Shown here piece after piece: positions 6,319-10,486 of a stretch of 64,000 nucleotides of DNA. The stretch lies in NCBI GenBank assembly GCA_023701385.1, contig JAMPXC010000001.1, forward strand, positions 1-64,000, written 5' to 3'. Within the stretch, counting starts at the first letter, position 1. Each line of letters starts with the position of its first letter. Under the pieces are notes generated by a model. That model searched no databases and was not told where the DNA came from. It worked only from the letters and a program-made list of their open reading frames with translations. Made by a program: the position numbers and the translations under genes. This DNA is from Pseudobdellovibrio sp. (lineage in GTDB: Bacteria; Bdellovibrionota; Bdellovibrionia; Bdellovibrionales; Bdellovibrionaceae).

Positions 6319-6678
6319 ATGAAGCACGACGCAAAAAAGGACTCATCAGTTAAGAATAACGCTAGCGAATCAGCTAAGCCCACTTTCGATTTTAAAATCG
6401 CAGGTGTTTCTTATAAAATTAAAACTTCACACGACGAACAAACTCTTCAACAACTTGTTGAGTACGTTGATGGTAAAGTATCTGAAGCCATGAAAGCGAC
6501 AAAAAATTCTTCTTTTCAAAATGCAGCTGTTCTTGCATCCCTTAATATCGCCGAAGAAATGATTCTTCTTAAACGCAGAGCCCAAGCCGAACTAGAAAAA
6601 CTAGAACAAAAAGCCCTTAAGCTCGCTCAAGAAATCGAAAATACCAAAGCCAACAAGACGCTAAATGTTTCGCCGTAA
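6319..6678 (+). CDS. zapA: Cell division protein ZapA-like
   Basis: A 119-residue protein of the ZapA family, which cross-links FtsZ filaments at the Z-ring. After a charged N-terminal extension (about 20 residues) comes the ZapA core: FKIAGVSYKIKTSHDEQTLQQLVEYVD, then an Asn/Ala-rich helix QNAAVLASLNIAEEMILLKRRAQAELEKLEQ forming the coiled coil. Length and helix pattern fit the family. A 5-formyl-THF cyclo-ligase gene follows 32 bases downstream; the zapA-cyclo-ligase pairing is common in proteobacteria. No Shine-Dalgarno sequence is obvious, so the exact start is less certain than the gene. Confidence 0.88.
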   Translation: MKHDAKKDSSVKNNASESAKPTFDFKIAGVSYKIKTSHDEQTLQQLVEYVDGKVSEAMKATKNSSFQNAAVLASLNIAEEMILLKRRAQAELEKLEQKALKLAQEIENTKANKTLNVSP

Positions 6679-6710: not shown

Positions 6711-7310
6711 ATGTCCCAACAGACGAAATCTTTAAAAAAAGATTTACGAACTGCTGTTATTGCCGAAACACTTTCACGCAGTGAAGGTGAACGCGCACTC
6801 TTATCGGGAAAAATTCAAAACCAGTTAACACAGTTTTCTCAAAAACAATCTGGCTTTTGGGGCGCTTTCAAACCCTTACCTTCTGAACCCCAAGTAAACT
6901 TCGACCAGTTGAATTCAGCGATCAAATGCTGTTACCCAAAAGTAACCGGCGATGATCTAGAATTTTATGCCGATGTGGATCAGTGGAATAAATCTGGCCT
7001 ACATGTGCAAGAACCGGTCAATGGCACAAAAGTAAAACTGTCTGACTTATCGGGCATTTTTGTTCCCGCATTAGCGTTTCATGCTGATGGTCACCGTTTA
7101 GGTCGCGGCAAGGGCTTTTACGACCGCGCTTTAGCTGACTTCACAGGTCCTAAAGTGGGCGTTTGTTATCAGTTTAATATTTTAAAATCTGTACCGACTG
7201 AAAGTCATGATGTGGGTATGGATTATATCATTACCGATGAAAAAATTATTCAACCTCGTGGGAGCGTAGCTCCCCAAGGAAATACAGGAGATCAAAGATC
7301 ATGGAACTAG
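6711..7310 (+). CDS. 5-formyltetrahydrofolate cyclo-ligase
   Basis: Converts 5-formyl-THF to 5,10-methenyl-THF using ATP and so clears a dead-end folate inhibitor. The 199-residue length is typical. An N-terminal basic stretch (SLKKDLRTAVIAETLSRSEG) resembles the ATP-binding KxxLR region, and the signature near the C-terminus, FVPALAFHADGHRLGRGKGFYDRAL, contains the family RLGxGxGxYDR motif. The start has GAGG about 10 bases upstream. Its last 10 bases overlap the start of the RNase Y gene, indicating coupled translation. A short perfect hairpin (GGAGC-GTA-GCTCC, 7261-7273) lies inside the 3' end of the gene. Confidence 0.93.
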   Translation: MSQQTKSLKKDLRTAVIAETLSRSEGERALLSGKIQNQLTQFSQKQSGFWGAFKPLPSEPQVNFDQLNSAIKCCYPKVTGDDLEFYADVDQWNKSGLHVQEPVNGTKVKLSDLSGIFVPALAFHADGHRLGRGKGFYDRALADFTGPKVGVCYQFNILKSVPTESHDVGMDYIITDEKIIQPRGSVAPQGNTGDQRSWN

Positions 7311-8863
7311 TTATTGCCGCCGTTGTAGGATTACTTATTGGCGCGTTTGCAGTATTTGCAGCCATTCGCATGCACGAAGCAAGCACAAAAAAGACAGCTA
7401 AAGGCGAAGCCGATAAAATCATTAACAAAGCAAAATCAGAAGCTTCTAAATTAAAAAAAGATTCTGAAACAAAAGCTAAAGATTTCGAAACTAAAGCGCG
7501 TAAAACAGTTGAAACTGAAATCAACAAGCAAAAAGCGCAATTAAAAAACAAAGAAACGCAATTAGAGCGTCGTCTTAAAGAAATCGAAGACCAGCACAAA
7601 CATAGAAGCGAAGAAAACGTTAAGTTTGAGCAATCATTAAAAGACCGCCAAGAAAGAATCCATATTTCTGAAGCGCGTTTACGTGAAGCTGAAAAAACAA
7701 CTCAAGATCAAATTCAATTCGTACAAAAGAAATTAGAAAACGTTGCTGGGATGTCACAAGAGCAAGCTAAACGTGAATTATTCCAAGTTCTTGAAGAGTC
7801 GGCAAAAAAAGAAGCAGCTGCTAAGATTGCTGAAATCGAAGAGCAAGCGATGAAAGAATCTGATCGCAAAACAAGAAACATCATTGCCCGTGCTTTAGCG
7901 CGTTTTGCTTCTGAGTACACCTCAGAAAGAACAGTAACGGTTATGCAATTAACTTCTGACGAGATGAAAGGTAAAATCATCGGTCGTGAAGGTCGTAACA
8001 TCAGAACTCTTGAAGCTATGTGCGGTGTGGATTTAATCGTTGACGACACTCCAGAAACAATCGTGATCTCTGGTTTTGATCCGGTTCGCCGTGAATTAGC
8101 TCGCCGTACAATCGATAAGTTAATGGAAGACGGTCGCGTTCATCCGGCCCGTATTGAAGAAGTTGTTGAAAAACAAAAATCTGAACTACAAAAATCAATG
8201 AAAGAAGAAGGCGATAAAGTGATCACTGAGCTTGGTCTTGCAGGTATGCACGGTGAGCTTGTGAAATACGTGGGTGCGTTGAAGTACCGTAACTTACACG
8301 CGCAAAACGCTTTAAATCATTCTTTAGAAGTCGCTCATATCTCGGGATTATTAGCGGCTGAACTTGGTTACAACGTGAAAATGGCTAAACGTGCCGGTGT
8401 ATTACACGGTATCGGACTCGCTGCTGATCACTCGATGGAAGGAAGCTACTCGCAAGTCGGTTCTGAGATCGCTAAAAAATTAGGTGAAAACGAAGAAGTT
8501 TGCCACGCGATTGCTTCGCATAACGATGACAAACACCAATCAGTTCTAGCTTGGATTGTTCACGCAGCAAATATTTTATCAAATGCTCGCCCAGGTGCTC
8601 GTCGTCCGCAAATGGATAGTTTTATTAACCGTTTAAAAGAATTAGAATCTATTTCAAATTCTTTCGATGGCGTTATCAAATCTGTGGCGTTACAAGCAGG
8701 CCGCGAAGTGCGCGTGTTAGTTGAAAGTTCACGTGTAACTGATGATCAATCAGTGATGTTAGCTCGTGATATTATCAAGAAAATCGAACGCGAAATGCCA
8801 CATGCTGGTGGCGTAAAAGTGACTGTAGTTCGTGAGTCACGCGCGGTTGAGATTGCGAGATAG
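7301..8863 (+). CDS. rny: Ribonuclease Y homologue with altered HD site
   Basis: Membrane-anchored RNase Y family protein, 520 residues as in Bacillus subtilis. It has an N-terminal membrane helix (about 2-22), a long Lys/Glu coiled coil, a KH domain (GKIIGREGRNIRTLEAMCGVDLIVDD, about 225-250) and an HD domain that starts at NHSLEVA. In active enzymes the metal-binding residues are the HD of LLHDIGK, SHHGD, and an Asp in AADALS. Here they read LHGIGLA (H369-G370), SHNDD (407-410) and AANILS (N424). The fold is clearly conserved, including ARPGAR and IQAGREVRVLV-like segments, but the nuclease may be inactive or use another metal arrangement. It overlaps the cyclo-ligase gene by 10 bases and is followed after 3 bases by tyrS. 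Confidence 0.93.
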   Translation: MELVIAAVVGLLIGAFAVFAAIRMHEASTKKTAKGEADKIINKAKSEASKLKKDSETKAKDFETKARKTVETEINKQKAQLKNKETQLERRLKEIEDQHKHRSEENVKFEQSLKDRQERIHISEARLREAEKTTQDQIQFVQKKLENVAGMSQEQAKRELFQVLEESAKKEAAAKIAEIEEQAMKESDRKTRNIIARALARFASEYTSERTVTVMQLTSDEMKGKIIGREGRNIRTLEAMCGVDLIVDDTPETIVISGFDPVRRELARRTIDKLMEDGRVHPARIEEVVEKQKSELQKSMKEEGDKVITELGLAGMHGELVKYVGALKYRNLHAQNALNHSLEVAHISGLLAAELGYNVKMAKRAGVLHGIGLAADHSMEGSYSQVGSEIAKKLGENEEVCHAIASHNDDKHQSVLAWIVHAANILSNARPGARRPQMDSFINRLKELESISNSFDGVIKSVALQAGREVRVLVESSRVTDDQSVMLARDIIKKIEREMPHAGGVKVTVVRESRAVEIAR

Positions 8864-10087: not shown

Positions 10088-10486
10088 ATGCGTATCAAGT
10101 TTTTACCTTCGGGCGTTGAAATTCCAGTAGATCCTTCAAAAAGTTTATTGCAGTTAGCAACTGAAAATGGCGTTAAGATTAAATCGATTTGTGGTGGCGT
10201 GGCTTCGTGCTCTGAATGCCGTGTGAAAATCGTTGAAGGTACGCACTGTGTACCAGAGCCTTCTAAAGCCGAACTAAATTTAATCGGTACCTCATACTTT
10301 TTAGATGGTCGCCGTTTAGCTTGTCAGGTTCGTTGTTTTGGCTCGATCACTGTTGATCTGACTGAACAATTAAATAAAGCCGACACACAAAAGAAAATTA
10401 AAGGTATGAAAATCAAAGATCAAAAAGAGATTCATGCTAAGCAAGATACAATGATTCTGACTGAATCAAAGGATCAAAAAAAGTAG
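10088..10486 (+). CDS. 2Fe-2S ferredoxin
   Basis: Plant-type 2Fe-2S ferredoxin domain of about 95 residues with a Lys-rich tail (132 residues in total). Cluster ligands are visible as C35, C41 and C44 (CGGVASCSEC, a C-x5-C-x2-C pattern) and C79 in RRLACQVR. It probably carries single electrons in the cytoplasm; the redox partner is not encoded nearby. The C-terminal 30 residues (KKIKGMKIKDQKE and on) are highly charged and outside the fold. The ATG follows the tyrS stop directly, with GGTGGA in the tyrS end as the likely ribosome binding site. Confidence 0.9.
   Translation: MRIKFLPSGVEIPVDPSKSLLQLATENGVKIKSICGGVASCSECRVKIVEGTHCVPEPSKAELNLIGTSYFLDGRRLACQVRCFGSITVDLTEQLNKADTQKKIKGMKIKDQKEIHAKQDTMILTESKDQKK

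Follow-up and report, generated by a model that had tools for sequence, protein, structure and literature searches.

In many bacteria, mRNA decay is initiated by RNase Y. The window analysed here, a stretch of 64,000 nucleotides from Pseudobdellovibrio sp., carries a full-length rny gene in a conserved gene neighbourhood, and residues of its catalytic metal site have been replaced. This raised the question of what such a protein could still do, and where the lost activity would come from. A search of the open-licence literature gave no publication that describes a pair of RNase Y copies or the function of RNase Y in Bdellovibrio.

The rny locus and its metal site

The gene, referred to as copy A, matched TIGR03319 RNase_Y with 582.6 bits, above the equivalog cut-off of 454.35, and Pfam RNase_Y_N, KH_1 and HD were all matched, which placed it within the family. 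The preliminary description of this DNA had read it as an RNase Y with a KH domain and the overall HD fold, and this reading held; a membrane helix and a coiled coil were kept as well. The domain order, length, anchor, coil, KH, HD, C-terminal and dimerisation regions were like those of the known RNase Y (Rny/YmdA, TIGR03319) of B. subtilis and S. aureus. The features of the locus are as follows.

6319..6678, + strand: zapA-like gene, conserved synteny
6711..7310, + strand: 5-formyltetrahydrofolate cyclo-ligase (MTHFS) gene, sharing 10 nt with the start of rny, conserved synteny
7301..8863, + strand: rny copy A, RNase Y of 520 aa (TIGR03319 and Pfam RNase_Y_N, KH_1, HD)
7301..7390, + strand: N-terminal membrane helix of copy A, residues 1-30 (hydrophobic translation; AF2 helix from residue 2)
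7391..7918, + strand: coiled coil, about residues 31-206 (alignment, AF2 model, register analysis)
7931..8134, + strand: KH domain, about residues 211-278 (Pfam KH_1, 34.1 bits; KH folds, Z 11-13)
7970-7999, + strand: intact KH loop GKIIGREGRN (alignment)
8306..8587, + strand: HD domain, about residues 336-429, with a degenerate catalytic site (Pfam HD, 42.5 bits; HD folds, Z 11-14)
8405..8410, + strand: HD dyad changed to HG, H369-G370 (alignment)
8447..8449, + strand: ligand His of the GSH motif, H382 in B. subtilis numbering, changed to Tyr383 (alignment)
8519..8524, + strand: HH pair with the second His changed to Asn, H407-N408 (alignment)
8570..8572, + strand: terminal metal-ligand Asp changed to Asn424 (AADA to AANI; alignment)
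8603..8860, + strand: C-terminal region, residues 435-520, proposed second dimerisation interface (B. subtilis AlphaFold dimer model, PMC9775385)
8867..10087, + strand: tyrS, downstream of rny, conserved synteny
10088..10486, + strand: 2Fe-2S ferredoxin-like gene, named by sequence reading, conserved synteny

The end of the cyclo-ligase gene and the start of rny share 10 nt (7301-7310), suggesting that the two genes may be translationally coupled. The AF2 model of copy A had a mean pLDDT of 81.7, and the KH and HD folds are both predicted to be kept, the KH domain with its GxxG loop. The best structural matches of the HD domain were to the HD-fold domain of bacterial glycyl-tRNA synthetase (Z 13-14), a resemblance of fold only, to part of a synthetase, and nearly tied with other HD domains. 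In the synthetase this domain is non-catalytic and contacts tRNA. A search of the PDB by sequence gave no RNase Y structure.

Residues of the metal site are numbered after B. subtilis RNase Y, whose H368-D369 pair agrees with the numbering of the preliminary description. It is shifted by one relative to the S. aureus pair 367/368 (PMC4608709). Compared to the intact ligand string HHDKHHHD, copy A read HHGLYHNN, so that the H-HD-H-HH-D arrangement was broken. Four of the seven HD metal ligands were gone (D369G, H382Y, H407N, and D424N), leaving H339 (H340 in the window), H368, and H406. The altered residues reported earlier at H369-G370, H407-N408, and N424 were all recovered by alignment, and two changes missing from that list, H382 to Tyr and Lys372 to Leu, were added. 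Since the corresponding protein of G013, an independent genome in one contig, is 95% identical and carried the same string HHGLYHNN, the changes are not an assembly or sequencing error.

A second RNase Y and complementary losses

A search of the window's own genome recovered a second full-length RNase Y (L002 on contig C79), referred to as copy B, which was 32% identical to copy A. All of its HD ligands were intact (HHDKHHHD), its KH loop read GLFCQNLKDN versus GKIIGREGRN in copy A, and Pfam KH_1 gave no match in it. Copy B scored 380.4 bits against TIGR03319, below the cut-off of 454.35; the model was still its best hit, and judged by its sequence copy B is a divergent RNase Y homologue of full length. 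It was complete in the anchor, coil, HD, and C-terminal regions, and the anchor helix and coil were present in the predicted models of both copies. A PDB profile search with copy B returned mainly coiled coils and weak Cas10 matches. The main point, absent from the preliminary description, is that copy A is one half of a pair whose other member has an intact HD site and a broken KH loop. That description had proposed a search for RNase E and RNase J; RNase E/G was present elsewhere in the genome, and no RNase J scored above its cut-off in it.

Two features of copy B were also observed. The last 25 or so residues of L002 formed a His/Gly-rich tail of low confidence (GHGHQGGGNHGKHENHRERNR). At L211:6971-9903 of the window's genome, copy B started 2 nt past the stop of an MFS transporter gene, and a related MFS gene lay near copy B in several other genomes of family f1.

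RNase Y sequences were gathered in three sets of genomes, namely 60 relatives, 291 drawn from the phylum, and 47 from family f4, and 188 to 190 proteins were aligned. The 117 main-locus copies consisted of 39 with all HD ligands and 78 without D424. Chance loss was ruled out by this partition, as 39/39 main-locus copies in single-RNase-Y genomes read HHDKHHHD and 78/78 others lacked D424. Within the collected set, none of the 39 genomes with an HD-intact main copy had a second RNase Y, and these copies had the KH loop wherever the sequence covered the KH region, which was missing from one fragment. The GxxG loop was kept in all 78 copies that had lost D424. Copies B retained all eight HD positions (HHDKHHHD in 73/73) and lost the KH loop signature in 71/73; both glycines were kept in four, two of them from family f22. 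Pfam KH_1 matched 43/43 A or single proteins versus 3/40 B proteins.

Both copies were read in 70 genomes. Copy B was a fragment in three more, and it was not found in five HD-dead genomes (G031, G291, G026, G314, and G317), four of which were fragmented or incomplete assemblies. The fifth, G031, was 99% complete in 10 contigs; since fadE, which adjoins copy B in relatives, was also missing from it, an assembly gap is possible there. Read from these motifs, the complementarity of A and B across Bdellovibrionales is nearly complete. RNase Y loci of other phyla kept both HD and KH motifs in 73/73 cases, a set in which the HD motif was partly selected by the search pattern and the KH loop was unselected.

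RNase Y was intact at locus L238 of Halobacteriovorax marinus, and the distribution alone gave no support to predation as the cause of the split. No RNase Y match was obtained in 76 of the 291 phylum genomes, and the two tested (G061 and G062) carried RNase E/G and RNase J. At L060 (G040:C42:9277-10804), in a genome of family f5, the only RNase Y was split in two frames near residue 350, where the KH-HD linker meets the HD domain. Its halves were otherwise intact, and the split could be a sequencing error or a true frameshift.

Origin of the two copies

Genes of the set zapA, MTHFS, tyrS, ferredoxin-like, or ftsY flanked every copy A and every single copy, and no copy B, whose neighbourhoods varied between genera. 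Because all A and single copies lie near genes of this set and no copy B does, it is, on gene order, the gene at the ancestral locus that appears to have lost catalysis, with the catalytic copy placed elsewhere.

In a tree built without the motif columns, the A copies of families f1, f10, and f4 formed one group (SH-aLRT 97) that excluded four intact single f4 copies, and the B copies formed one long-branched group. The loss of D424 needed two changes, one in the f1/f10/f4 group and one in the distant family f22; forcing the f22 A copies together with the other A copies was rejected (p = 3e-7). The inactivation in f22 was likewise accompanied by a second copy. The second copies of f22 retained the KH loop (IIGKSGRN and IIGRMGRN), as expected if A loses catalysis before the KH domain of B decays, and complementarity is therefore incomplete in that family. 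Copy B could also have been acquired from another lineage, instead of arising by duplication of A, and then have taken over catalysis. The B copies branched apart from A and single copies and together with those of f22 (support 89-92, not starred), as such an acquisition would predict. However, A and B as a single clade was not rejected (p = 0.23), and the long B branches may be drawn to the base; a single clade of f22 A and B was weakly rejected (p = 0.013), and long branches may bear on this test too. We regard acquisition as rather doubtful. It concerns origin only and is compatible with a division of functions between the copies.

A probable division of functions between copies A and B

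Copy A was under strong purifying selection. Between G000 and G013, dN/dS was 0.052 for its HD domain and 0.047 for the whole gene, and the other measurable copy A pairs were likewise low. Identity among A copies in f1 was 0.89 for KH and 0.65 for HD, that among B copies was 0.48 and 0.72, and single copies gave 0.74 and 0.78; the domain identities of A and B were mirror images. The loss of active-site residues, several of them repeatedly, is what a decaying pseudogene might show, but full-length frames at all complete loci, dN/dS of about 0.05, and conserved synteny ruled this reading out, and we give it practically no weight. The KH domain of copy A was conserved no less than that of single-copy genomes, copy A persisted in three families and in genomes of 1.2 Mb, and both copies were present in genomes of 1.2-1.3 Mb. 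The earlier view that the gene is not simply decaying was therefore upheld.

It is also very improbable that copy A is still a nuclease with its metal on remaining or new ligands. H368 was kept in 77 and H406 in 68 of the 78 copies without D424; since D424 itself was kept in none, some of the remaining site may serve the structure or contact RNA. The same retention could speak for activity, as could the 22 of these 78 copies that lost the terminal Asp only, to Asn, and the HD-GYP protein Bd1817 of Bdellovibrio bacteriovorus, in which the terminal HD ligand has undergone the same Asp-to-Asn change and two irons are still bound (PMC8177086). Bd1817 is, however, inactive on c-di-GMP (PMC8177086), and differs in being an HD-GYP rather than an RNase Y, without a KH domain or a described partner copy. 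Moreover the copy A of the window has also lost D369, and S. aureus RNase Y no longer functions once the HD pair is replaced (PMC4608709). The suggestion that copy A uses another chemistry was not sustained: the lost positions drifted by lineage (D424 to N, Y, F, V, H, S, C, or I in the 78 copies), and no conserved replacement ligand stood at them, which speaks against new metal ligands. What stood of the preliminary description was a maintained protein that would be nuclease-dead, in keeping with the loss of the terminal Asp in all relatives with a second copy; what it lacked was that this protein would be only half of a pair.

We favour, with moderate confidence, the explanation that the functions of a single enzyme are shared out between the two RNase Y paralogues, probably in one heteromer formed through the known dimer interfaces. 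Copy A would be the RNA-binding subunit, with anchor, coil, KH, and an HD fold that lacks a working metal site and so could not cut RNA. Copy B would be the catalytic subunit, with anchor, coil, and a perfect HD site, having lost the RNA-binding loop of its KH domain. The division of labour between A and B is well supported at the level of sequence, and we hold an A-B heteromer to be its most likely mechanism, with the balance tipped somewhat in its favour. Opinion is evenly poised on a more specific form, an obligate heteromer that arose by complementary degeneration, in which RNA bound by the KH domain of one subunit is passed in trans to the HD site of the other, and in which the housekeeping copy was inactivated twice independently.

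RNase Y dimerises via its coil and, in an AlphaFold model of the B. subtilis protein, via the C-terminal region (PMC9775385), and in S. aureus an RNase Y without its anchor can be re-anchored by a partner that is mutated in the active site (PMC4608709). The coil block was 180 residues long in 67/67 paired A copies and 65/67 B copies. A and B coils of the same genome were about 20% identical, and their hydrophobic patterns were in phase at zero shift only (r = 0.70 versus 0.29 or less). Given TyrRS distance, the rates of A and B covaried at 0.44-0.63 in f1, the A HD domain excepted, a level that equalled the one within A and exceeded the 0.19-0.36 of the neighbouring MTHFS gene, a comparison that rests mainly on this one control gene; covariation was weaker in f4 and f10 combined. 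From the coil length and register, the rate covariation, and the published dimer interfaces, we infer that a mixed A-B oligomer is likely.

The two copies may instead work separately. Copy A, non-catalytic and in the membrane, would then bind RNA as a scaffold or competitor, and copy B would be a homodimeric, KH-independent nuclease with altered RNA selection. Coil charges leave room for this, as they do not favour A-B over A-A pairing. The net charge in f1 was +6.2 for A and -11.6 for B, with 31/31 f1 B copies negative, and opposite charges were found in f1 and f10 only, not in f4; the offset-5 charge score of A-B pairs (2.4) was not above that of A-A pairs (4.0), and same-genome pairs scored barely above mismatched pairs. 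Copy B is complete in all regions but KH, and some genomes appear to be without it. On the other hand, separate working does not account for the loss of A function only in lineages with a second copy and of the B KH domain only alongside A, for the covariation of A and B rates above the neighbour-gene control, or for coil length and register kept in both copies. We consider it unlikely.

The proposed A-B complex has a partial parallel in the RNase J1/J2 pair of Firmicutes, in which one of two paralogues supplies the activity. In the S. aureus complex only the J1 active site performs the 5' exonuclease work in vivo (PMC4608709), and RNase J2 has much lower activity (PMC7864078). RNase J belongs to an unrelated family and fold, and J1 has not been reported to lose its RNA-binding part (PMC4608709, PMC7864078), so that the loss there is one-sided. 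Known RNase Y is a single gene with both KH and HD functions, whereas here each is intact on a different copy.

With KH and HD naturally split onto separate subunits, their cooperation in the RNase Y dimer would become open to direct test. In relatives of Bdellovibrio, the gene annotated as the housekeeping rny probably encodes no nuclease, and knock-outs or annotations based on it would mislead. Together, the two copies would clearly exemplify a duplication after which each copy lost one function and kept the one lost by the other, and family f22 may be caught at an intermediate stage of this process.
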